Positions 2,796 through 62,981 of a DNA stretch of 64,000 nucleotides are shown here, one piece after another. The notes beneath the pieces were generated by a model. The model saw nothing but the letters and a program-made list of their open reading frames with translations. It had not been told where the DNA came from and did no database searches. Within the stretch, counting starts at the first letter, position 1. Every line of letters begins with the position of its first letter. The translations under genes were made by a program, and so were the position numbers. This DNA comes from a virus, in IMG/VR virus record IMGVR_UViG_3300008108_002889, positions 40,534-104,533 of that record. One strand, written 5' to 3'.

Positions 2796-3976
2796 AGTAT
2801 TTTAAAGATCTAAAAGCCGGAGGCTGCATTATGCTAAACTACGGTATTGAAAGCGGCAGTCAAAGCGTATTAGACGACATGGCCAAAGGTGTTACTATTG
2901 CAGAAATGGAACAGAACTTCCGCGATGGTAAGGAAGTTGGTATCTATGCTGCTACAAACTGGATCGTAGGATTCCCTACAGAAACGCTACAAGACTTTGC
3001 TGATAGCATGACTCTGTTGTGGCGTATGCGTGACATGAATATCAACAATGTTGGCGCCGGTGTAGGCTACGGTCTAGGACCGGAAACTATTGTTGGGCAG
3101 AATACACATAAGTTTAATATCAGCGCACAAAAATATCAAGGACATTGGATCACTAGTGATTTTACCAAAGGTGGTACACATGTTATGACCAGAGTAAAGA
3201 CACTCCATATGTTCCTAGATTTAATGACGGGATGTACTGAAGTACCTTTTGGATACCCTGTAAGATTTAATCTAGCTAAAGAGCACTATAAAATACAATT
3301 AAACAATCCATACCTTATAAAAGAAATTGAATATGAAAAGTTTGATTACAATATAATTAAACCTAATCTTAATCCTTTTGCTGATGCACTAGTAAATGAG
3401 ATGTGGCCATTTTTCCGTATGCTATGGAAAACTCGAGGCGGGTATGAAGCTGAAATTTTATTTAATCCCACAATTGATCTAAAAGAATTTGGAACCCAAT
3501 ACGGTCCAGGAATGTATAACGCATTATTTAAATTTAAAATTTCAGATGACGGTCAATGGACTGCTGATTTTAAATACAAATTTGATCAAATTGATAATCC
3601 CTACGACGAAAGAGAGCCTCCGCCTAGAGGTCGTAAAGGACCATTCTATGCTCAGGATTATAGTCGCATGATGAGTAATACTGCAAAGCGAGCAAGGAAG
3701 TTAGCTAAACCAACATGGGATGTTGAAGCTGGCAGAAGTGGTGACGACTTTAATGTTCTTTTAGAAGAAGAAAGAATTTTAAATAACACAATAGATTTTA
3801 CCTTTCAGTATAGATATAGAGGCCAAGGTCATTGGGGTAATTTTAAAGAGTACGAAGTAGAAGTTCCAAATATTTCAAAAATGGAAGCTATTCCTGAAAA
3901 GGCAGCAATGCACTCTAATGTAGTAATTCCAATCTCTAGTATTAAGAACATAAAAGAAAATGTCCCCAATAGTTAA
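2678..3976 (+). CDS. B12-binding radical SAM protein, C-terminal part (frame broken)
   Basis: Family sequence begins near 2721 (AVEAKGLKINWTGYARCDGR) and continues through AGGCIMLNYGIESGSQ, the TIM-barrel part that holds SAM, then a long C-terminal domain rich in aromatic residues. The first codons given here are only the open part of this frame overlapping the upstream piece. Compared with other radical SAM proteins, the stretch between the cysteine motif and the WTGYARC strand is too short, missing roughly 30-40 residues. A small deletion, not a single-base slip, therefore best explains the break. Its stop overlaps the start of the aminotransferase gene by 17 bases, as expected for one operon. 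Confidence 0.78.
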   Translation: MYILRRNTLLEISSASAVEAKGLKINWTGYARCDGRMDLEYFKDLKAGGCIMLNYGIESGSQSVLDDMAKGVTIAEMEQNFRDGKEVGIYAATNWIVGFPTETLQDFADSMTLLWRMRDMNINNVGAGVGYGLGPETIVGQNTHKFNISAQKYQGHWITSDFTKGGTHVMTRVKTLHMFLDLMTGCTEVPFGYPVRFNLAKEHYKIQLNNPYLIKEIEYEKFDYNIIKPNLNPFADALVNEMWPFFRMLWKTRGGYEAEILFNPTIDLKEFGTQYGPGMYNALFKFKISDDGQWTADFKYKFDQIDNPYDEREPPPRGRKGPFYAQDYSRMMSNTAKRARKLAKPTWDVEAGRSGDDFNVLLEEERILNNTIDFTFQYRYRGQGHWGNFKEYEVEVPNISKMEAIPEKAAMHSNVVIPISSIKNIKENVPNS

Positions 3977-40189: not shown

Positions 40190-41326
40190 TTATGCTGCTT
40201 TCTTTTTAGCAATGGCAATCGCTGCCTGCTGTTTAAGATTTTTAGACTTACCAGCTTCCATCATGCTACCACATTCTTTTAGGCCGTGTACTGGACAGCT
40301 TTTACCTTTTGGTGTGTGATTGCATTTGTTTTCTTTTACTGGTCTTGTTGGTTGAGCTTGATTTGCAAGATCATTTGCAGCACCGGCTCTGGCAGTTCTT
40401 GCAGCCTGTGGATCAGGCATAGTATTTTCCATCTTCTTACCAAACTTCTCACCGCCTTTCATACCCCAGGTGTTGCCCTTGTGTTTAGGTAACTTAATTT
40501 CACGGGCTTTGTCAGCTTTCTTTTCAGCAGCAGATTTTTGTTTTACTTTGCTGGTTGGTTCGCCGTGTTCTTCATCTGAGTGACTGGTATTAACGTGCTT
40601 AACACCTGTAGCAGTTTTAGTCAATACTCCAGTGCGTGTTTTTTTAGAATCGCCTGTCTTCTTAAGCTCACTTGACTCTTCTTTGACAGCCTTGCCACCT
40701 TTTTCGTCTTTGCCTAAACGTCCAGCAACAACATCACCACGTGTTACTTTGTCGTAGGGTTTAGCGTTGTTAGCTAGGTTGCCGTCACCCTTTTTAGATT
40801 TAGCAGCTTCTCTAACAGGTTTGGCCAATGCAGGGTTTGTAGGACCCATGGCTTTCTGACCAGTCTTGGGATTAATATCTCCCCAGCGGATACCTTTGTT
40901 TGGACCAGCAACAATTACAGGATACTTTCCGTCTTTGCCTTTTGGAGGAGGAGCACTTTCACCATCTGGATCATAAGGCAGTTGCAAGCCTGACTCGTCC
41001 ATGTTTTGTGCAGCTTTTTTAAGTTTATTTAATTTTTGTTTTGCTTCAACTAGCTTCTGACGGAACTCAGCTTTAACAGATTCTGAGTACATGTCGCTGT
41101 TTTCAATTTTGTTACCGTATTCGCTAAACTTCATTTCGTACTCCATGTAATGATATACGCTGGCTACATAGTCAGCGGCTTTGGTAATTTTAGCCTGTAC
41201 CCATCCTTCTAGTTGATCACCGTCTCTGATCATTTTAAAAAGTTTAAAGCTATAATTAGCCATCTTATAAAGATCAGCTCTAGCCATAGCAGCTTCGTGA
41301 TCATCTGGACGCATATTTAAATCCAT
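40190..41326 (-). CDS. Head-block orphan with Cys/His tail
   Basis: 378 residues. Residues 1-115 are helical (KMANYSFKLFKMIRDGDQLE, ADYVASVYHYMEYEMKFSEY). A long lysine-rich, low-complexity middle follows, then a Cys/His segment NKCNHTPKGKSCPVHGLKEC near 345-362 that could bind zinc, and a final KQQAAIAIAKKKA helix. Several small phage proteins share the KGKSCPVHG segment. The basic middle suggests DNA packing inside the head. It is preceded by a late octamer and TTGGAG. Confidence 0.65.
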   Translation of the reverse strand: MDLNMRPDDHEAAMARADLYKMANYSFKLFKMIRDGDQLEGWVQAKITKAADYVASVYHYMEYEMKFSEYGNKIENSDMYSESVKAEFRQKLVEAKQKLNKLKKAAQNMDESGLQLPYDPDGESAPPPKGKDGKYPVIVAGPNKGIRWGDINPKTGQKAMGPTNPALAKPVREAAKSKKGDGNLANNAKPYDKVTRGDVVAGRLGKDEKGGKAVKEESSELKKTGDSKKTRTGVLTKTATGVKHVNTSHSDEEHGEPTSKVKQKSAAEKKADKAREIKLPKHKGNTWGMKGGEKFGKKMENTMPDPQAARTARAGAANDLANQAQPTRPVKENKCNHTPKGKSCPVHGLKECGSMMEAGKSKNLKQQAAIAIAKKKAA

Positions 41327-42279: not shown

Positions 42280-43170
42280 TTATTCCTTGACTCTTCTTTC
42301 TGCTACCTTAACCGGCATTTCTTTTTCTGATTTCTTACTATTAAACGGTATTTCTTTTTCTGCGTTCTTTTCAAATCCACTAGGCGATGATTTGTTTGCT
42401 GAGATATCGCTAGGTGCTTCTGGCTTCACTGGTTTTTTTACAGGAGTAATAGGTTTTTCTTTTTCAGCTTTGGATTTTTCAGCTTTGGATTTTTCAGCTT
42501 TGGCTTTTTCAGATTTAGATTTTTCAGCTTTGGCTTTTTCTTTTTCAGCTTTGGCTTTTTCTCTTTCGTCTTTTTTCCTAGATTCTTCTTCTTCTGCGTC
42601 CATGTACGGTAACAGGTATTGTCTTACTAGTTCAAAATAAGATCGTCCCGCAACTATAATATCTGGTTGACCATCTAGAGCATATTTTTCAAAGTCGTCT
42701 TTATTATTTTCTCTTACAGCTTTACGAACTAAAGATGCTTCGCTCTTACGTTTTGCTTCAGCCCAGACAATATTTTTAAATTTATAATAACCATGCGGTC
42801 CTTCAACACCGTTTTGTTTCTGAATCATTGGTAGATATATTTTCATATCTTTGTCATCAGTGACTACACGTAGAGTTGTTCCTTCACCGTGTTGCTTGTA
42901 GGCCATTACAGCAAGAGTAAACCAAGTTTGAGTAGCAACAAGATGCTCAACAATTTCTGGATAGAGTTTTTTCATTGCTTCTACTTTGATGCTAAATGGT
43001 AATGGATCTTTAGGACCTTGTGTACTTTGATTTGTACCAATATACCAAGCTGGAAACTTTGATGCTTCTACCCATGCAGCCACGTGGCCGAAGTGTGGAG
43101 GATTAAATCTTCCAAACATAATAGCTACAGATCTGTCTGTGCCAACTTCAAATAGTTCTCTTAAAAGCAT
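42280..43170 (-). CDS. Nucleotidylyltransferase (NMNAT/cytidylyltransferase-like) with KAEK-repeat tail
   Basis: 296 residues. VAIMFGRFNPPHFGHVAAW at residues 15-33 carries the HxGH nucleotide-transfer motif. KSEASLVRKAV near 145 matches the second (S)xxxxR substrate motif. It then has about 50 residues of Lys-Ala-Glu repeats and a polar tail. Such enzymes attach AMP or CMP to a phosphate, for example NMN to NAD. The first residues MLLRELFEVGTD look like a targeting leader. NAD supply, or carriage into the host with the DNA, is inferred. Confidence 0.78.
   Translation of the reverse strand: MLLRELFEVGTDRSVAIMFGRFNPPHFGHVAAWVEASKFPAWYIGTNQSTQGPKDPLPFSIKVEAMKKLYPEIVEHLVATQTWFTLAVMAYKQHGEGTTLRVVTDDKDMKIYLPMIQKQNGVEGPHGYYKFKNIVWAEAKRKSEASLVRKAVRENNKDDFEKYALDGQPDIIVAGRSYFELVRQYLLPYMDAEEEESRKKDEREKAKAEKEKAKAEKSKSEKAKAEKSKAEKSKAEKEKPITPVKKPVKPEAPSDISANKSSPSGFEKNAEKEIPFNSKKSEKEMPVKVAERRVKE
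42460..42560. repeat. Repeats of about 15 bp encoding KAEKS/KAEKE
   Basis: Imperfect units of the form agctttggattttt or agctttggctttttc, encoding Glu-Lys-Ser/Ala-Lys-Ala. They make a highly charged helix or coiled coil and can slip. Confidence 0.8.
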
Positions 43171-43536: not shown

Positions 43537-44586
43537 TTACCAAGCCCTACATGACCAATAACGTGCCTTCCAACGTGGACCAGGATTGTCGCAGTTGTGA
43601 CGGGCACGGAAGTTTTTGCGGCGACCAGGAATATGCTTTTTAATGCTTAATTTCTTGTCACCAAAATTTACTTTAACTACTTTACCATTGGGTTTACGCA
43701 CATAAACTTTAGACTTTTTAACATCACCCTTCATAGGCTTGCCTAAAGGCACAGTACGCCCTTGATAGTCAGCTTCAGTAATTAGCTCAACACTTGATTC
43801 TCCAAGCATTTTTATGGCTTCGCTATCTAATGCAATAAGAATACTGTCTTCCCAGCTTTCTAATACAGTGGTTTCGATAACTGTATCTTCACTGATCTCT
43901 ATTTCAAATCCATCTCCGGGATGAACATCGCCTTCTAATTCTATTTGTTCAATATATTCAACTAATTTTTTACTTTTTATGTTTGTTGATTCTTGTGTAG
44001 GAGACGGTATTGGTGTAGACGGAGTTTGAGCAGCTGGCTGTGCAGGACTTAAACTAAAATCTTTAGGTATAAATTTTAAAACTTCTTCTGGAGACATGCC
44101 TGTGTTTAATGCAATTTTTGCCGTGCCCTGCGGATCATCAAAATGTGTAATCATCGGCAGTAGGTTCTTTGTCACTTCGTCTTGGCTCATAGGTGCTTGT
44201 CCAAACTCTTGTTCTTGTTTTTTAAAACGTGCTATAGCTTGCGGGTCTACAAGAGTTTTCAATATTTCCAAATTACTAACAGTAAAATCTTGTCCTGGTA
44301 CTCGGCCTTGAACCTCTACTTTAGGTTTGTTCAGATCAGCTGGACTAACTGTATTGTTGGCCTTAAAGTCTGCCATGGCCTTTTCGTATTCAGCTCTAGA
44401 TTTGCTGCCAATCTTTTGATACCGTGTCCAGCCCTTTTGTGGGCCATCTGGTATAATAGTTTTAGTATATCCAGGGCGATCAGGTGCAGGTCCAGGCGGT
44501 ATCGGTGCATTAGGCCCAATGCCTGGTGGCGGCCCTTCATTTAGAATGTCTAAATAGCTACGTAGTATATGTGAATGCACCGACAT
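43537..44586 (-). CDS. Virion-type orphan with basic Cys/Trp C-terminal domain (DUF5872-like)
   Basis: 349 residues. N-terminus MSVHSHILRSYLDILNEG, targeting-like, then Pro-rich linkers. The middle (EGDVHPGDGFEIEISEDTVI) is an acidic beta segment. The C-terminal 80 residues, KSKVYVRKPNGKVVKVNFGD through RKNFRARHNCDNPGPRWKAR and YWSCRAW, resemble a small basic domain seen in many phage structural proteins (DUF5872 as I recall). Two cysteines there may bind metal. Its ribosome site AAGGGA is buried in a 13-bp hairpin. Confidence 0.68.
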   Translation of the reverse strand: MSVHSHILRSYLDILNEGPPPGIGPNAPIPPGPAPDRPGYTKTIIPDGPQKGWTRYQKIGSKSRAEYEKAMADFKANNTVSPADLNKPKVEVQGRVPGQDFTVSNLEILKTLVDPQAIARFKKQEQEFGQAPMSQDEVTKNLLPMITHFDDPQGTAKIALNTGMSPEEVLKFIPKDFSLSPAQPAAQTPSTPIPSPTQESTNIKSKKLVEYIEQIELEGDVHPGDGFEIEISEDTVIETTVLESWEDSILIALDSEAIKMLGESSVELITEADYQGRTVPLGKPMKGDVKKSKVYVRKPNGKVVKVNFGDKKLSIKKHIPGRRKNFRARHNCDNPGPRWKARYWSCRAW

Positions 44587-44590
44587 AAGA

Positions 44591-44628
44591 AGTCCCTTAT
44601 TTCTTTATATTTATCGAAATAAGGGACT
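44591..44628 (-). promoter_or_regulatory. Late promoter inside a 13-bp hairpin that hides the ribosome site
   Basis: Minus strand: arm 44628-44616, loop 44615-44604, arm 44603-44591; all 13 pairs match. The loop begins GATAAATA (44615-44608). Starting 6 bases on, near 44602, a late transcript keeps AAGGGA but loses the left arm. A read-through transcript would fold and hide it. Confidence 0.8.
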
Positions 44629-44632
44629 AGTG

Positions 44633-45271
44633 TTACGCTTTAATTACTGATTCTATTTTGCTTACATACGTGCCTACAAACATCCTAACCATGGTCATAG
44701 CCTTATCAGTACGTACATAGAAGTAGCTACCGCCATAACTACGTGTTTTACACAGGTCTTTTTCAGCTCTTTTTGTAAGACGTATATTCTTATTTTGTCT
44801 AGCCCATGTTACAAATGTACTGTTATCCTGTGTAGTTTTACCTAGGAAAACTTTATAATCATAGTCTAATTTTTTAACAATTACTGCTCCTTCTTTTAAT
44901 GAAGGATTAGTCTTGTTAGGCATACAAACATAGCTTACTCGAGCTGGATCCAACCCAGCTAACGCTTCGATAGATTTGCTGTTGTTGCTGTAAAAGTTAA
45001 GATAAGGATGCTCAACTCTTACATTGTAATCACTAGAATTCACCAAAGCTTTTTGTAGATTAAAGCAATACTCAATGTCTTCGTTAGATTTAATTTTGAG
45101 CCATAACGGTCGCTGCCCTGTTTTTAGTAGCTTGAGTCTTGCCTCAACAAAATCTAAATCGTTTCCTCTAAACCAATTCGCGGCAGGACACACAAGTACT
45201 ATTTTGTATTGGTACTTGTTTGAAAATAGACTTACTGTGTCCTTGATTAGAATTGATTTATCAAGCCTCAA
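44633..45271 (-). CDS. Orphan, 212 aa, coupled to clpA
   Basis: Starts at TTG inside the clpA stop region, so the start is uncertain. The sequence has a beta-strand IVLVCPAANWFRGNDLDFVE, then a helix with VEARLKLLKTGQRPLWLKIK and a C-terminal KRAEKDLCKTRSYGGSYFYV segment, an alpha/beta layout with basic residues near the end. No motif recognised. It may be a partner or substrate adaptor for ClpA, by position only. Confidence 0.62.
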   Translation of the reverse strand: MRLDKSILIKDTVSLFSNKYQYKIVLVCPAANWFRGNDLDFVEARLKLLKTGQRPLWLKIKSNEDIEYCFNLQKALVNSSDYNVRVEHPYLNFYSNNSKSIEALAGLDPARVSYVCMPNKTNPSLKEGAVIVKKLDYDYKVFLGKTTQDNSTFVTWARQNKNIRLTKRAEKDLCKTRSYGGSYFYVRTDKAMTMVRMFVGTYVSKIESVIKA

Positions 45272-47504
45272 TTGCTAACATCCTTGGGAGTTTAGGTTTA
45301 GAAGTTAGTAAAAGTTCACCGTTCTTCTCTGCAATTACCAATGTACCGCCGTCTTTTAACTCTCCGAACAGCATCATACGAGCTAACGGACGTTTAATTT
45401 CTTTGTCAATGACACGTTGTAATGGTCTTGCACCCATCTTACTATCAAAGCCTTTTTCGATTAACCAATCAATTGCTTCATCAGTGACTTTAACTTTGAC
45501 ATTCTTTTCTTTGATCTGATCGCGAAGTTCAATAATAAACTTACCAACAATTTTAATCATTGTTTCTTTAGTCAGCTTACCAAATGTAACCACAGCGTCT
45601 AAACGATTGCGGAATTCAGGGGCAAAGAATTTCTTCAAAGCTTTGTCTTCATATGTGCGCTCTTGACTGCCAAAGCCAATTTGATTCTTTTCAGATTCGG
45701 CTGCACCAGCATTTGTAGTAATGATAAGAATTAAATTGCGGCAGTCTGCTTGTTTGCCATTTGACCCTGTGATAAAACCATTGTCCATCATCTGCAATAA
45801 AATAGTTGAAACATCAGGATGTGATTTTTCAATTTCGTCTAATAGCAGTACGCAGTTAGGTGATTCTTGAATCTTGGTAATAAGTAGACCTGCGTTCTCT
45901 TCAAAGCCAACGTAGCCTGGCGGTGAGCCGATCAATTTACTTACAGAGTGTTTCTCTTGATATTCACTCATGTCAAAACGCACAAGTTTAACGCCAAGAT
46001 TTTTTGCCAGTACTTTGGCTGTTTCAGTTTTACCTGTACCTGTTGGGCCCATGAACACAAAACTACCAACTGGCTTGTTTTCAGGTTTAAGTCCTGCACG
46101 GCTAACAAGAATCTTATCTACAATTTCTATAATTGCGTTGTCTTGTCCGTAGACTTCTTGTTTGAGATTACCTTCAAGCGATGCTAGGTTTCCAGTTTCT
46201 TGTTCTGCAATCTGCTCAACTGGCATTTGAATCATTCTTGCAATTTCAAATTGAATAGAATCTTCGTTGACAATTCTTTCATCTGCAAGTTTAAGATTAA
46301 ATCTACTGCAAGCACAGTCAATTAGATCAATTGCTTTGTCTGGTAGCTTTTTGTCGCTTTGATATTTCACGCTTAATTTAATAGATGCACGGATAGCATC
46401 ATCTTTGATCTTAACATTGTGAAACTGTTCGTAGTACTTTTTAACACCCTTGAGAATCTGTAGTGTCATTTCCTGCGTAGGCTCGTCAACAGTAATGCGT
46501 TGGAATCGACGCATCAGCGCACGATCCTTTTCAAAGTGCTTGCGGTATTCTTCCCAAGTAGTTGACGCAACAACTTTAACATTACCTTTGGCCAATGCTG
46601 GCTTCATCATGTTAGCAAGGTCGTTGGCATTGTTATTAGCAGATCCTGCACCGCTGATCATGTGTGCTTCGTCGATGAACAACACAGTCTTGCCTTTTTT
46701 GCTCAAACCTTTTAGTACTGCTTTAAATCTTTCCTCAAAGTCACCGCGATATTTACTGCCTGCAAGCATGGCACTTACGTCTAAACTAAAAACTGTATAG
46801 CCTTTGAGAAACTCAGGTACAGCACCACTGACAATATTATAGGCCAAGCCTTCTGCAATGGCAGTTTTACCAACGCCTGGGTCACCTACTAGAATACAAT
46901 TATTCTTACTGCGACGGCCTAATGCCAAGGCAATGTTTTCTAGTTCTTCAACACGACCAATGACAGGATCAATTTTGCCTTTTCTTACCAGCTCATTAAG
47001 GTTGCTGGTAAAAGATTTAATAGCTCGTTCTCCAGCGTTGTCACGAGGATCTTCTTCTTCAACAGGCTCAACTTCGTTGTTTAGATAATCTGCAAACTTT
47101 TCTTTATCGATATCAGCTTGTTGAATATAGTAACTAGCCCAGCTACGTTTTTCACTCATCATGGCAAGGAAAACGTCTGTGCTTTCGATACGTTGACGAC
47201 CGTTAAACAACACCTGTGTAAAAGCACGGTTAAGAACACGCTCAACTGTTTGAGTTTTACGAGGCTTAATGTCTGTGGTTGTATTGTTAATGATCTCGTC
47301 ACATTTATTTTTAAGATAGTGTTCGAGATTCTTTTTAATGTATTCTGGATCGGCACCATAACCCTGCACACAATTAAAAAAGCTATCTTCACAGAGCATT
47401 GAGAATAATAAATGCTCTATAGTAAGATAATCGTGCTTTAACTGTTTGGCAACATTAATTGCTTTTTCAAATACTAGCTGAAGCTCGCTGCTGGGTTCTA
47501 CCAT
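45261..47504 (-). CDS. clpA: ClpA-like AAA+ unfoldase
   Basis: 747 residues, close to E. coli ClpA (758). An N-domain with two Clp-N repeats (QLKHDYLTIEHLLFSMLCED near 16-35), then AAA+ domain 1 with Walker A GDPGVGKT near residue 207 and domain 2 with GPTGTGKT near 488. NQIGFGSQE near 615 is the ClpP-binding IGL/F loop. No clpP is present in the window. It would unfold proteins and feed host ClpP, redirecting host proteolysis. It lies downstream of def and dnaJ and shares their promoter. Confidence 0.9.
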   Translation of the reverse strand: MVEPSSELQLVFEKAINVAKQLKHDYLTIEHLLFSMLCEDSFFNCVQGYGADPEYIKKNLEHYLKNKCDEIINNTTTDIKPRKTQTVERVLNRAFTQVLFNGRQRIESTDVFLAMMSEKRSWASYYIQQADIDKEKFADYLNNEVEPVEEEDPRDNAGERAIKSFTSNLNELVRKGKIDPVIGRVEELENIALALGRRSKNNCILVGDPGVGKTAIAEGLAYNIVSGAVPEFLKGYTVFSLDVSAMLAGSKYRGDFEERFKAVLKGLSKKGKTVLFIDEAHMISGAGSANNNANDLANMMKPALAKGNVKVVASTTWEEYRKHFEKDRALMRRFQRITVDEPTQEMTLQILKGVKKYYEQFHNVKIKDDAIRASIKLSVKYQSDKKLPDKAIDLIDCACSRFNLKLADERIVNEDSIQFEIARMIQMPVEQIAEQETGNLASLEGNLKQEVYGQDNAIIEIVDKILVSRAGLKPENKPVGSFVFMGPTGTGKTETAKVLAKNLGVKLVRFDMSEYQEKHSVSKLIGSPPGYVGFEENAGLLITKIQESPNCVLLLDEIEKSHPDVSTILLQMMDNGFITGSNGKQADCRNLILIITTNAGAAESEKNQIGFGSQERTYEDKALKKFFAPEFRNRLDAVVTFGKLTKETMIKIVGKFIIELRDQIKEKNVKVKVTDEAIDWLIEKGFDSKMGARPLQRVIDKEIKRPLARMMLFGELKDGGTLVIAEKNGELLLTSKPKLPRMLAIEA

Positions 47505-48000
47505 TACGTTTCCTTTGTTTTTTAATAGCTAAATCTAATTTAAATTTGCTTACTTTAGAAATAAAGCATACGCCATTCAAATGATCTAATTCGTGTAAAA
47601 AGCATCTTGCATCGATGCCGTCAAGTCTTATTATAACAGGATTTTTATCTCTGTCAAAAAATTCGACTACAATGTTTTCTGGACGTCTTACTGCTAACAG
47701 CAGATTTGGAAAACTCAGACAGCCTTCGTAGTCTTGAGTTTCGTCATCGCTGGTAGCAATAACTTTAGGATTGAATACTGCAAAGGGTTCTGTTACGCCC
47801 TGCAGATTTCTTGTGTACATTGTAAACACTCGAGCTTCTATTCCGCATTGTGGTGCGGCAAGCCCAATACCGTTTTCAGCATACATAAGTTTGACCATTT
47901 CTTCTTCTAGGTCTTTAGGATCCATTACCGGATTATCAAAATCAAATTCCGGCATAGTTCTGTTTAATATATCATTTGGATGTGAGACTAATTTCAGCAT
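47467..48000 (-). CDS. def: Peptide deformylase
   Basis: 177 residues, typical length. Three motifs are present: GIGLAAPQCG near residue 45, EGCLSF near 93 and FLHELDHLNG near 132 (HExDH), whose cysteine and histidines bind the metal. It removes the formyl group from new proteins. Phage deformylases are known from marine T4-like phages, where they may favour processing of particular proteins. It overlaps both dnaJ (29 bases) and clpA (38 bases), so the three genes are translated from one mRNA. Confidence 0.95.
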   Translation of the reverse strand: MLKLVSHPNDILNRTMPEFDFDNPVMDPKDLEEEMVKLMYAENGIGLAAPQCGIEARVFTMYTRNLQGVTEPFAVFNPKVIATSDDETQDYEGCLSFPNLLLAVRRPENIVVEFFDRDKNPVIIRLDGIDARCFLHELDHLNGVCFISKVSKFKLDLAIKKQRKRNGRTQQRASASI

Positions 48001-48823
48001 ATAATTTTTCTAGCTTATCTTTAAGGTCCGGATCTTTTACTGCCGGGATTTGCATTTTAATTTTAATAATAAGGTCTCCGTGAAAGTTACTGTTTATGTT
48101 TTTGAAACCTAACCCTGCAGATGCAAAATCGCTGTGCGGATCAACACCCGGGGGCAGGTTAAATCTTATATTTTTACCACCCGGAACTTCTACTAGTTTA
48201 GTACATCCTAGCATGGCTTCAAATGGATCAACTGCAACATAGGCAATAAGGTGATCGCCTAATCGTTCGTATATTTGACTTGGTTCAACAACCACAGTGA
48301 CTAGTAAATCACCACGGGGCAACTGGAGTATGCTATCGTCACCCATGCCAGTGTATCGAATAGTCTGACCACTTTGTATACCCGGCGGTACTTTAATCAG
48401 TACATTTTGATTTTTACCGGATGGCAATTTGTAATTGGCTTCTAACTCTGTGCCGGTATAACTTTTATCAAAGGCAATTCGTATGTTGATATTTAAATCA
48501 CGATTTTTAGCTCGACGCTGACCTTGCCTAAAGATTTCTTCAAAAGGATGTCCTCTTCCAAATCCCTGCCCAAACATAGCACCAACATCAAACCATCCCG
48601 GCCCTGCGCCAGCATGTCCAAACCCCTGTCCGTTCTTTTCTGCATCGTAGATAGATTTTTTATCAGGGTCGCTTAACGTATCGTAGGCCTGTGATATTTC
48701 TTGGAACTTTTTCGTATCACCACCTTTATCGGGATGATGTTTGGCTGCAAGCTTCCTGTAAGATCGCTTTATTTCATCCAAAGATGCGTTTTCGTTAACT
48801 TCTAAAATTTTATAGTAATCCAT
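47972..48823 (-). CDS. dnaJ: DnaJ/CbpA-type co-chaperone
   Basis: 283 residues. J-domain at MDYYKILEVNENASLDEIKR with the HPD motif in KHHPDKGGD (residues about 30-38). A Gly/Phe region (GQGFGHAGAGPGWF) follows, then two beta-sandwich C-terminal domains (GTELEANYKLPSGKNQNVLI). There is no zinc finger, so it is class B like CbpA. It stimulates host DnaK ATPase. The start at MDYY is preferred because a consensus promoter occupies the 40 bases upstream; an earlier ATG at 48865 would lie within that promoter. Confidence 0.93.
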   Translation of the reverse strand: MDYYKILEVNENASLDEIKRSYRKLAAKHHPDKGGDTKKFQEISQAYDTLSDPDKKSIYDAEKNGQGFGHAGAGPGWFDVGAMFGQGFGRGHPFEEIFRQGQRRAKNRDLNINIRIAFDKSYTGTELEANYKLPSGKNQNVLIKVPPGIQSGQTIRYTGMGDDSILQLPRGDLLVTVVVEPSQIYERLGDHLIAYVAVDPFEAMLGCTKLVEVPGGKNIRFNLPPGVDPHSDFASAGLGFKNINSNFHGDLIIKIKMQIPAVKDPDLKDKLEKLYAEISLTSK

Positions 48824-48829
48824 AGCACT

Positions 48830-48858
48830 ATTATATATTAAAAAACTGACAATGTCAA
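48830..48858 (-). promoter_or_regulatory. Exact sigma70 promoter of the dnaJ-def-clpA operon
   Basis: TTGACA (48858-48853), 17-base spacer, TATAAT (48835-48830) on the minus strand. TGACATTGTCA is a palindrome over the -35 box. The ATG begins 6 bases after TATAAT, predicting a leaderless mRNA. Confidence 0.93.
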
Positions 48859-58129: not shown

Positions 58130-59448
58130 GCAAACTCGCCAATAAATTTAATATAAACAACATTGTCGTATGGATCTTTCCATGCTTCAATTACTTTTCT
58201 TCTTGATGTATCTGCACTAACAGTAAATGGTGCTACTATAGACTGTGCATTTCTAGTAACAGTAAGATTGGAACCAAATGCTACTGCCTGTCCAGAATCC
58301 CATGTAACAGTAAGGATTGTTCTAGGAACTTGAGTAAGTGTACCAGATGCTGTTGAAAAAGTTTGAATTGCTGTGCCACCGTGATTCGTAGCTATTCTAA
58401 TTCTTGTTCCGCTGATAATTGCAGAAACAAAATAGTCAGTTAACGATAATAGACCACCGAACCCTGTACCAGTGAAGCTAATTGGCATACCAACATACAT
58501 GTTTGTTGAATCAATTGTCACAGTATTTGCATCGCCTGATAATGGAAAAGAAGCATTTTGAGACCCACCGGTATATGCACCAGTGGTTGCTATTGCAACA
58601 TAACTTACTGGGCTACTAGATAGTTTTATATCTCCGCCAACTTTATAAGCATAGTATGTTTGCGTAATACTTAATTCTGGTACTCCGGTGATGCTTGCTA
58701 ATTTAACTGGATCACCATCTGTAACAGATGCAATGCTACTACTCATAGTTACAAAAGTATCAGCCCCAACTACAATATTAGAGTATCCAATGGTTAATGT
58801 AGCTGTAGTACCGGTTGCATTACCGGTCATTGGTGTTACTGCTGAAACTGTTACAGTTCCAGTAATGCCTGTTCCGTATACAGTGTTACCAACTTCAAAT
58901 ATTCCTGATGTAAGGTTAGAATTAATATAGGTAAGTCTAGTTGTATTTGATAGTACGGATTTTAATTCTCGTACTGCACCAGTAGCAACTGCTAGGTTTT
59001 GACCAATTTCATATTTAACTGTGCCGCCACCGGTAGTAGCAAATGTAATAGTTCTTTGCGTACCGTCACTTCTTAATTCTAGGCGGATACGTCCGTATTT
59101 GTCGTTACCGGGCCAACCTTCAAAAGTAATAAGTCTATCAGCACCTGCTACTTCAATAAGCTGATATTCACCGTTGGTAAGACTTACTGCTAGGTTTGAA
59201 GTAGCAGTAGTTTGATACGCACCTCCCCACGCACGACTTAATACTAGATTATCTAATATATTTCCGTTAAAGTTATTAGTACCGTTTATTTTGGCTGTGG
59301 TATCTTGTAATGTTGTAATTTCGCTAGCCGCAGTAGACAAGCCGGTTTTAATAACATTAAAGTTATCTCTAAATCCTTGACTGTCGTTGTCAACTCCTGC
59401 TACTGGAAAATTAGCATCTATAGTGTTTGCTACTATTGCACTGGTCAT
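58126..59448 (-). CDS. Virion fibre-like protein
   Basis: 440 residues. The N-terminus SAIVANTIDANFPVAGVDND then SQGFRDNFNVIKTGLSTAAS and EITTLQDTTAKINGTNNFNG is a pattern typical of T4-like structural proteins that bind the baseplate or tail. The rest is Thr/Ser/Gly/Val-rich beta sequence (TVSAVTPMTGNATGTTATLT), ending DNVVYIKFIGEFA. No enzymatic domain is seen. It overlaps the large adhesin gene by 4 bases, so both are made together. Confidence 0.72.
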   Translation of the reverse strand: MTSAIVANTIDANFPVAGVDNDSQGFRDNFNVIKTGLSTAASEITTLQDTTAKINGTNNFNGNILDNLVLSRAWGGAYQTTATSNLAVSLTNGEYQLIEVAGADRLITFEGWPGNDKYGRIRLELRSDGTQRTITFATTGGGTVKYEIGQNLAVATGAVRELKSVLSNTTRLTYINSNLTSGIFEVGNTVYGTGITGTVTVSAVTPMTGNATGTTATLTIGYSNIVVGADTFVTMSSSIASVTDGDPVKLASITGVPELSITQTYYAYKVGGDIKLSSSPVSYVAIATTGAYTGGSQNASFPLSGDANTVTIDSTNMYVGMPISFTGTGFGGLLSLTDYFVSAIISGTRIRIATNHGGTAIQTFSTASGTLTQVPRTILTVTWDSGQAVAFGSNLTVTRNAQSIVAPFTVSADTSRRKVIEAWKDPYDNVVYIKFIGEFA

Positions 59449-62400
59449 GTTAATGTGGTCCTATCGTTTCTAAATACAAGATATTTATCCGTGTCGTAGG
59501 CACCGTCTACAGAATCAATTATGTAGCGATCTACGGTGTAATCTAGTATTTTTGGGTCAAAATTACTGTTCTTAATGTTTAACAGTATTTCAGCAGACTT
59601 ACCTGGTAAGCAAAAGCACAACGGTACCGCAGCAGTATAATTTAATTCTGTTGCTGATCCGGGCTGAATACTACGCATCCATAACGGTAAGTAATTTCTT
59701 TCAGATTTAGTATTTGGCATATTACGTATTCTATAACGCCACAAGCTTATACTGCTTGGGAATCTAAATGTTGTTTCAGGATCTCCAACATAAACATCAG
59801 TTCTATCAATGGTAGAATTGAATGGTATTGGCCTATTCCAAAATTGTGTATCTAGTTCCTGCGGTCCATCATAAAATTGATTATTTTGATCTACTGTTAC
59901 TAGTCTATTGTTGTCTTGTAACTTTAATAACAACGGTAATGTTTTACCGTTTTTCTCTAACGTGTCTATCATTTCTATGTAAACTACTTCGTAGACAATG
60001 TCGTTAGTGCCAGTCGTTTTAGCCACCGCAGATTTAATCTCACCAAATCTGAATCTTTTTGCCTTGTGATTTTTGCCCATGGCACTGATATATTCTGCAG
60101 CCAGTCTTGTTTCTATACCTGCATAGACTAACATACGCAGATCTTTTTGTATACCATAACTTTTATCGTAGGGTCTGTAGATATATTTCTGATCAAATAT
60201 ATTAACATTATTCATGAATGATTTAAAAAGTTCTCGCTGATTTGGTTTTAAGAAAGGCTTAACTGTAATATTGCTGTAGTTTACATCGTTTGGTGTTTCT
60301 ACTGTTAATGTAAATGTTTTTTCTACTGCACTAAATCTCAAAGGATCAGCAGCTTCAACAGTGAATGTGTATTCTCTGTCAAACGTAGTAGTGTTTTTTG
60401 CACCATCTAAAATAAAAGTATTTCCGTCAATGGCAGTAAGACTTAAATCAGTAACAGGGAATTCATAAAGGTCCCATTTAATTGGATCAAAAGATAATCC
60501 GCTATTGTGAGCTTCATTTGATTTATAATAACTAGGGCTAGCTGTTGCTGATCCAATGGCTTTGGCCATTGTTGTAGTTCTGCCTTTGTTTTCGTAGCTG
60601 AAATAATTTAATGGAAGAACCTGCGTTTGTCCTTCAAATGATGCTATACCAACGCTTACACCAATAATACCAGAACCAAAGAATCCTGGATCATTGGGGT
60701 AGCCTAGTGTAAGGCTATCGATAGTACTTGACAATGCCAGCCATCTTCCGTTATAGGTACTGGTACTTTGTCCACGTATTTCATAGTAAAATTCTAACCC
60801 CGATGAAGTAACAAATGTTAAATCGTGAAGCCCGTCAACTCCGCCAAGTTGGCTACCACTGACAGTAATAGAATCTCCAGGCTTATATCCTACACCTGGA
60901 TCAATTAATTTAATTGTAGTAACACCTCTGTATATAGGATTTATTAAATTAGAAACTTTTTCAACTCTAAATACTGCTCCAGTTCCAGTTCCGGATGTAG
61001 AAGATGCAGAAACAACTGGCCAAACAAAACTGCTAGTTGATATAGCATTGCCTTCTGCTAGAGTAAACACTGGAGCCAATGGCATTAAATTTTGATCAAC
61101 AATATCAAATTTTACTCTCCAAATTGATCCGGTTTGTTCTTTATCTATTACTGACAACACTTTGACAGGATCTAAATTTATTTTTACTGAATCGTAAAAA
61201 TTAAAACTGTCAGTGTCAGTTATAACTTTAGTCAATGCTCCGTTTTTAAAATTATGATCTGTAGTAGTTACAACTGTAGCTATGTTTTTTCTTCTTATTA
61301 TAGATCTAATTTCAGCAGTATTGTCTTGCTTTACTACATCTCCTACAGCATAATTTTTGCTAGGTTTCCAGTAGCTTTTATATATTACTTGATCGTTAAC
61401 CTCGTTTACTTTACCAACTATTTCACCATCAAAGTTTAAACTTAAACCAGCTGGCAGTTTACCGCTAGTTACTCGATATAAAATCTGCGGACTAAATGTG
61501 CTAGTTGCATGGACAAATAAATCACTGACATATCCAGCATTAATACTGCCGAGGCTGCTAGGACTGTTCCATGTCATTACACTTTCAACTTCGCCTAATA
61601 TTTTGACAGTAAACAGTCTTCGACTAGATGCAGTTTCGCTGCTTTGACCAAACCTAGTTGCTTTAATAGTAAAATTAAACTCTCTAGTCACTGCTGATTG
61701 GTAAGGTACAACACCAAATACTTCTCCAGTGTTTCCATCGAAACTCATACCGGGAGGTAGTTTACTCTTATCACCAATGTAGATTGCTGTACTATCTGGA
61801 ATAGACATGTCAAGGTTAGGAATAACAGTAATCCTGTAAGTGTCCCCACCTACGGTATCTACGCCTATGATATCATAGGTTTTTCCAGTCGCGCCTGGAA
61901 AGTCGCCAGCAAAGCTTACAAATTGTCCTATTTTTGGAACATCGGAAGCTCTTTCAAACCTTATAAAATTTAAACCTTGTCTATTATCAGATGCAGATTC
62001 TTTTCTTACAATACCGCTGATCCTTGCATTAACATCACAATAACTAAAATTAATTGGGCCTAAATCTGTAAATCCTTCAAAAATATCTATTTTAAAAGTT
62101 TGATAGTTGTTAGCTCTTCTAATTCCCAAGTTAGCCGGTGTGGTAAAGATAGGCGTTCTTACATAAGTAACGTCAGCGGTAAAAGTTCCGCTACCTGAGC
62201 TAGTAATAGTATTGTCTGCTCTAAAGAAATCATCTCCTACTACAAATATTCTATACTTGCGTTTGTTAACAGTATCACCGTCAGTGATAGTGGCTATAAA
62301 TTCGTAGTTTCTGTTTAGCTTTCTAGGTTTAGTTGTAGGTACAAAAAAGTCAAAAACAGTTGAATCGTAGACAAACGAGTCGTATCCGTTTGACGGTCTA

Positions 62401-62981
62401 AATCCAAAGTCATAGGCTACGCTGTCGTAGAGATCTGTATCAAAAGGACCGTTACCTGATTTAGCAGGAATCTGTAGCAACGGCTGTATAAAACCTGTTA
62501 TTCTGCCACTGCTGGTCATTAATAGACCTGGAGGAAGTTCTCCTTCTCCGCTGGCTATAAAATAATTTAATTTTTGTCCAACAGCAGTATCGGTATCAGA
62601 CGCACCTAATTGAAAATCAATATAACTTGTTTCTAGAACAAAATATGCGTTATTTGAGCCGACTGGTAATGGGCCCGACGGTGATATCCATTGAGGCTCA
62701 TCTGCTCCTGCAACCGTCATGTAAAAAGTTCTATCGCTTATTCCGGATGTAGCAGTGGCTCTTATTACAAATTTAAATTCAGTAGTACGAGGAACTTCGT
62801 AGGGTGTTCCTACTATTTTATATCCAGAGATTCTTAACCCGGGGGGAAGTTTGCCCGCAATTACAGAAAATGTAACTCCGGGCGTATTATTAGTGGGTAA
62901 ATTTATGTCTACAGTTTCGCGTTCTTGTCGAATACCAAAACTGTAGCCAGAATCTTGAATCCAAATAGATAATGCCATCAT
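59445..62981 (-). CDS. Large adhesin-like virion protein with He_PIG repeats
   Basis: 1178 residues. At least four He_PIG-like Ig units are marked by LPPGLRISGYKIVGTPYE, LPPGLLMTSSGRITGFIQ, LPPGMSFDGNTGEVFGVV and LPAGLSLNFDGEIVGKVN, followed by YTFTVEAADPLRFS-like strands. The C-terminal ~250 residues are a different domain (KDLRMLVYAGIETRLAAEYI). No signal peptide. Ig-like and cadherin-like folds in phage tail proteins aid binding to cell-surface sugar. A hairpin over its ribosome site and a late octamer control it. The companion subtilase gene lies just upstream. Confidence 0.85.
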   Translation of the reverse strand: MMALSIWIQDSGYSFGIRQERETVDINLPTNNTPGVTFSVIAGKLPPGLRISGYKIVGTPYEVPRTTEFKFVIRATATSGISDRTFYMTVAGADEPQWISPSGPLPVGSNNAYFVLETSYIDFQLGASDTDTAVGQKLNYFIASGEGELPPGLLMTSSGRITGFIQPLLQIPAKSGNGPFDTDLYDSVAYDFGFRPSNGYDSFVYDSTVFDFFVPTTKPRKLNRNYEFIATITDGDTVNKRKYRIFVVGDDFFRADNTITSSGSGTFTADVTYVRTPIFTTPANLGIRRANNYQTFKIDIFEGFTDLGPINFSYCDVNARISGIVRKESASDNRQGLNFIRFERASDVPKIGQFVSFAGDFPGATGKTYDIIGVDTVGGDTYRITVIPNLDMSIPDSTAIYIGDKSKLPPGMSFDGNTGEVFGVVPYQSAVTREFNFTIKATRFGQSSETASSRRLFTVKILGEVESVMTWNSPSSLGSINAGYVSDLFVHATSTFSPQILYRVTSGKLPAGLSLNFDGEIVGKVNEVNDQVIYKSYWKPSKNYAVGDVVKQDNTAEIRSIIRRKNIATVVTTTDHNFKNGALTKVITDTDSFNFYDSVKINLDPVKVLSVIDKEQTGSIWRVKFDIVDQNLMPLAPVFTLAEGNAISTSSFVWPVVSASSTSGTGTGAVFRVEKVSNLINPIYRGVTTIKLIDPGVGYKPGDSITVSGSQLGGVDGLHDLTFVTSSGLEFYYEIRGQSTSTYNGRWLALSSTIDSLTLGYPNDPGFFGSGIIGVSVGIASFEGQTQVLPLNYFSYENKGRTTTMAKAIGSATASPSYYKSNEAHNSGLSFDPIKWDLYEFPVTDLSLTAIDGNTFILDGAKNTTTFDREYTFTVEAADPLRFSAVEKTFTLTVETPNDVNYSNITVKPFLKPNQRELFKSFMNNVNIFDQKYIYRPYDKSYGIQKDLRMLVYAGIETRLAAEYISAMGKNHKAKRFRFGEIKSAVAKTTGTNDIVYEVVYIEMIDTLEKNGKTLPLLLKLQDNNRLVTVDQNNQFYDGPQELDTQFWNRPIPFNSTIDRTDVYVGDPETTFRFPSSISLWRYRIRNMPNTKSERNYLPLWMRSIQPGSATELNYTAAVPLCFCLPGKSAEILLNIKNSNFDPKILDYTVDRYIIDSVDGAYDTDKYLVFRNDRTTLT

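Follow-up and report, generated by a model that had tools for sequence, protein, structure and literature searches.

The locus and its hairpin

The window, meaning the whole 64,000-nucleotide (64-kb) stretch that was analysed, covers positions 40,534 to 104,533 of IMG/VR virus record IMGVR_UViG_3300008108_002889. On its minus strand, the gene for a 349-aa protein is preceded by a perfect inverted repeat in which all 13 positions of the two arms are complementary (Table 1). Read 5' to 3' on that strand, the order is AGTCCCTTATTTC (left arm), GATAAATATAAA (loop), GAAATAAGGGACT (right arm), TCTT and the start codon ATG (44586-44584). The loop contains the octamer GATAAATA (44615-44608), so that the first-pass annotation, which reported a 13-bp hairpin with a T4-type late octamer in its loop, is confirmed. 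A search of the phage collection returned nothing for the orphan gene just upstream, the source of any read-through RNA, and this gene belongs to no Pfam family.

Table 1. Coordinates of features at the locus (positions are those of the window)
Feature	Position	Strand	Remarks
Perfect sigma-70 promoter TTGACA-17-TATAAT, ahead of DnaJ gene	48830..48858	-	12/12; kept in G002, G005, G006, G007
Second perfect sigma-70 promoter, within peptide deformylase gene	47630..47657	-	12/12; 16-bp spacer
Early-type genes: DnaJ, peptide deformylase, ClpA-like ATPase	45261..48823	-	
Upstream orphan gene	44633..45271	-	212 aa; stops 4 nt short of the hairpin
Hairpin, left (5') arm	44616..44628	-	44628-44616 read 5' to 3'
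Hairpin, loop	44604..44615	-	12 nt
Late-promoter octamer, within loop	44608..44615	-	-13 to -6 in the T4 register (PMC2988020)
Predicted late transcription start (+1)	44602	-	From octamer register; 16-nt leader
Hairpin, right (3') arm	44591..44603	-	Inverted repeat of left arm
Shine-Dalgarno AAGGGA, within right arm	44593..44598	-	6 nt from ATG
Regulated gene	43537..44586	-	349 aa; basic domain at the C terminus (phrog_7595), preceded by a putative gp21-type site, ITE/A

The repeat (44591-44628) is the only one of its class in the window (perfect, with arms of at least 13 and a loop of at most 20), and dinucleotide shuffles of the window (n=12) yielded none. The fold of the hairpin region has a z of -4.2 relative to shuffles (computed on the plus strand, the palindrome being identical either way). 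A search against Rfam returned a single sub-threshold match to mir-1 on the opposite strand (18.1 bits compared with a gathering threshold of 45.6, E 0.22), which is noise.

Late-promoter octamer and late sigma factor

The octamer sits 21 nt ahead of the gene (44586-43537). It differs by one base from T4 TATAAATA and fits NATAAATA, the late-promoter consensus of S-PM2 (PMC2984593). In T4 the first base of the octamer is -13, and nine T4 sites have A replacing T there (PMC2988020). Placed in the T4 register, +1 would fall at 44602, inside the right arm, in agreement with the earlier prediction that the start lies at that arm.

The distribution of the motif supports its identification as a genuine late-promoter sequence that is enriched ahead of genes. 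Only 5 copies of ATAAATA occur in the window, where 27 would be expected; each of them is on the minus strand, has the form GATAAATAT and lies a short distance ahead of a gene on that strand. Among the 45 copies of GATAAATA in six related phages (G000 and the records of L004, L008, L014, L016 and L017), 39 fall 12-45 nt ahead of an ATG; this zone accounts for 1.9% of the sequence. Eight larger relatives encode gp55, the late sigma factor of T4 (E 1e-27 to 1e-23), and 6 encode gp23. A tblastn search with proteins of Pelagibacter phage HTVC008M matched gp55, gp21, gp20 and gp23 in G005 and G007. A search with proteins of the same phage gave no match for gp55, gp33 or gp45 in the window's own record, a 109-kb fragment; the DNA polymerase and clamp loader of this fragment are T4-like.

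Early promoters and expected read-through from upstream

The DnaJ promoter lies 3.8-4.2 kb from the octamer in five phages, and no strong terminator-like site occurs between the two in any of the five. The promoter internal to the deformylase gene scores 12/12 in four phages, namely that of the window and G001, G006 and G007; in the relatives it is at L103:11887, L117:3793 and L130:15581. Given conserved early promoters and no strong terminator, early RNA is expected to cross into gene 43537-44586.

The DnaJ start codon is only 6-8 nt past the -10 box of its perfect sigma-70 promoter in 5/5 phages (48858-48821 in the window), and the early DnaJ mRNA is therefore probably leaderless. Directly upstream of the DnaJ promoter is a terminator-like hairpin (48896-48869).

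Cost of opening the Shine-Dalgarno sequence

We computed the cost of opening the Shine-Dalgarno (SD) sequence twice for each leader, once in an RNA extending 50 nt to the 5' side of the octamer and once in an RNA starting 6 nt past it. The earlier annotation had proposed that AAGGGA is free in late mRNA and folded in mRNA arriving from upstream. The computed values bear this out: opening costs ~16.5 kcal/mol in the read-through RNA of the window leader versus 0.6 kcal/mol in the predicted late RNA. A start at 44602 leaves out the left arm, thus the SD would be free in late RNA, with the caveat that this RNA may fold a weak 6-bp hairpin across it.

Such a difference is exceptional among late leaders. 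The median cost difference is 0.6 for the 109 NNTAAATA sites that precede ATGs in the six phages, among which the leaders of the window gene and its homologues rank 1, 2, 3, 4, 7 and 9. Each of the six phages thus has its copy of this leader ranked ninth or better (hypergeometric P ~4e-8). T4 served as a positive control. Read-through RNA gave 14.5 kcal/mol for e, 12.2 for I-TevI, 11.7 for I-TevII and 10.5 for 49 (1.5 for gene 49 in late RNA), and two other late genes, 34 and 36, gave 2.4-4.0 kcal/mol in the same computation. T4 soc was left out of the quantitative control, as the octamer rule chose TTTAAATA, too near the ATG. The precedents named in the first-pass annotation (e, soc, 49 and I-TevI) were correctly cited (PMC3014915), and e, 49 and I-TevI score like the window leader in this test.

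Conservation of the leader and alternative roles of the hairpin

Leaders of close homologues retain the left arm, octamer and right arm although both arms vary in sequence. Examples of arm pairs are ATCCCTCTTAC/GTAAGAGGGAT in L004, AACCCTTTTAC/GTAAAAGGGTT in L009 and GGTCCCCTATTTC/GAGATAGGGGATT in L136. In 14 leaders, aligned by hand, standard pairs occupy 158/171 cells (92%). When right arms were re-dealt among leaders in 5000 shuffles, which ignore relatedness, the mean was 80% and the maximum 89.5%. Five pairs have changes on both sides, and pairing is poor in one leader (L007). Comparison of these sequences thus supports covariation of the arms between relatives. Where the gene is present in the close clade, the right arm of its leader includes the SD. 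In distant homologues the octamer is present and an SD-hiding hairpin is absent, thus the switch would be confined to one clade.

In L135-L137 (~3640-3700) the gene is lost, ACG stands at the former ATG and the next gene is a homologue of window gene 43533-43174. The hairpin and octamer are retained, with pairing preserved across all three and a T-rich tract present. Hiding an SD cannot be the only role of the hairpin in these phages, and a second role such as termination or insulation is possible.

This bears on the leading alternative, in which the main role of the hairpin is intrinsic termination of the early ClpA-44633 transcript, the loop promoter restarts transcription beyond it, and the SD is hidden incidentally or as a second lock on that boundary. 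The persistence of a paired hairpin and T-rich tract in L135-L137 fits such a role, as do runs of ~6 T or more directly past the GGG arm in L007-L010, L016, L017 and L021. In the window, however, the tail is TCTTATG, which breaks the T tract, and the classical terminator score is -33.7, so that SD hiding is the better reading there. The score is negative in every leader except L015, and the T tract varies, whereas leaders with the gene always have the SD in the arm. A scan for terminator patterns omits the hairpin, although its loop limit of 8 would exclude a 12-nt loop anyway. We consider it unlikely that termination is the main function. With T tracts in relatives and a hairpin that outlasts the gene, termination of early RNA may be an additional one.

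A second alternative accepts the octamer as a real late promoter and assigns the hairpin to protection of the upstream RNA 3' end or to marking a processing site. The survival of the hairpin after gene loss in L135-L137 would also fit this reading, but it leaves aside the placement of the SD in the right arm of close-clade leaders with the gene and the outstanding position of this leader among the 109 late leaders, and we judge it very improbable. That a palindrome surrounds the promoter by chance has nothing in its favour except the small size of the element and is ruled out by the uniqueness of the repeat in the window, its conservation and the covarying arms.

The regulated gene and its product

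A Pfam search identified no domain in the 349-aa protein. Matches to phrog_7595, and to proteins from phages of Pelagibacter, Roseobacter, Flavobacterium and Methylophilales, fall in its C-terminal 80 residues. The depositor's name for distant homologues, 'HVA1 family', is without Pfam support here.

The first-pass annotation had called the gene a head-block orphan. Its placement in a head block did not hold, as the gene is at ~20 kb and gp20-gp23 at ~111-117 kb in the relative G005, a distance of ~90 kb. The protein itself does look head-targeted. The motif L/I-x-E occurs within residues 7-20 in 76% of 83 family members, compared with 38% for shuffled sequences and 22% for a set of 418 other phage proteins; in the window protein the N-terminal motif is YLDILNE/GP. 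L/I-x-E is the gp21 motif, and its position corresponds to that of the capsid-targeting sequence in T4 (PMC9026906). A second, nearly invariant site, E-A, is found directly ahead of the conserved domain (E69-A70 is invariant in the family alignment), with L or I at the required position before it in 47/75. Cleavage at this site would free 78 residues with a pI of 11.0 (23 K/R, 4 D/E) from an acidic leader with a pI of 4.7. On the basis of these motifs, the product is probably an internal head protein that is processed by gp21 and packaged. Packaging in the head would account for late-only expression of the gene. The AlphaFold2 model for the family (mean pLDDT 62, pTM 0.41) was of too low a quality for a fold search.

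Starts resembling LRELFE are present in other proteins of these phages (e.g., window 42280-43170). In Methylophilales phage Melnitz (L088, 4342-6294) a cytidylyltransferase is fused to the basic C-terminal domain. The genes for the cytidylyltransferase and the basic domain are adjacent in HTVC008M, and one gene lies between them in the window.

Proposed switch

We propose that host sigma-70 starts an early RNA ~4.2 kb upstream, which would cover the DnaJ, deformylase, ClpA and 44633 genes before entering gene 43537-44586. In this read-through RNA the hairpin would fold and mask AAGGGA, presumably blocking translation. Polymerase carrying gp55 would initiate at ~44602 and make a 16-nt leader without the left arm. 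In this late RNA, AAGGGA would be free, 6 nt ahead of the AUG, and the gene would be translated. As a result, the protein, probably one that undergoes processing and is packaged in the head, would be made only late. We consider it likely that the leader acts in this way, as the first-pass annotation had proposed, with a predicted 5' end, a presumed translational block and a putative head role for the protein.

A broader version is that the element is a double-acting boundary. The hairpin would terminate the upstream RNA (as the T6-T7 tracts of relatives suggest) and hide the next start, and the promoter in the loop would open a clean late unit. The insulator would have been kept after gene loss in L135-L137, and the arrangement would reserve a gp21-processed, head-packaged basic family for late expression. 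We offer this only tentatively and hold it to be rather doubtful.

Comparison with known systems

A switch of this type is already known from T4, and the evidence supports its occurrence on this conserved gene family as new. SD-hiding leaders of the same arrangement precede T4 e, soc, 49 and I-TevI (PMC3014915) and other T4 homing endonuclease genes (PMC2988022). In the leader of e (lysozyme), a late promoter is upstream of the SD, a helix in read-through RNA hides the SD and late RNA is without the 5' strand (PMC3014915). T4 e has two late promoters, whereas the window gene has a single octamer, entirely enclosed by the loop of a perfect 13-bp stem. Likewise, soc and 49 are late genes that lie within units transcribed early and have a structure that hides the SD (PMC3014915).

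In I-TevI and I-TevII, and also in segB and Aeh1 mobE, the octamer lies between the arms and the SD is in the right arm (PMC2988022); the I-TevII leader reads CCTCG-TATAAATA...CGAGG. Unlike these homing endonucleases, which are intronic or free inserts, the window gene is a conserved phage gene for a probable head protein.

The protein resembles T4 IPI-IPIII, internal head proteins with a capsid-targeting sequence, in its N-terminal L/I-x-E and its predicted small basic mature part (78 aa with a pI of 11.0 predicted for the window protein, 76 residues in mature IPI; PMC3012670). The likeness is one of motif and size, and the window family differs in having the second, nearly invariant E-A.

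Significance and other leaders

These observations would extend the T4 switch to uncultivated phages and to a conserved gene, with covariation over many leaders. Polymerase and capsid proteins of these phages have ~26-36% identity to those of a marine T4-like phage. The arrangement also provides a sequence rule for recognizing late-only genes in early operons without transcriptomics (a late octamer flanked by complementary arms, the 3' one containing the SD) and directs attention to a new protein family, probably internal to the head.

Other leaders have arms downstream of the octamer (L038, L040, L043, L047, L052, L070, L074, L128:10408, L115 minus 1062 and window 19298-19262). Late RNA from these would open with a short stem (e.g., AGTATC...GATACT), with the SD in or near the loop. 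The stems finish at or just short of the ATG, and their letters covary. In G007 (L103:60-130) a second late promoter lies between arms, GATAATCC-TATAAATA...-GGATTATC, the right one of which contains the SD. This promoter precedes the gene for an 861-aa protein, whose homologue in the virus of the window is encoded at 59445-62981.
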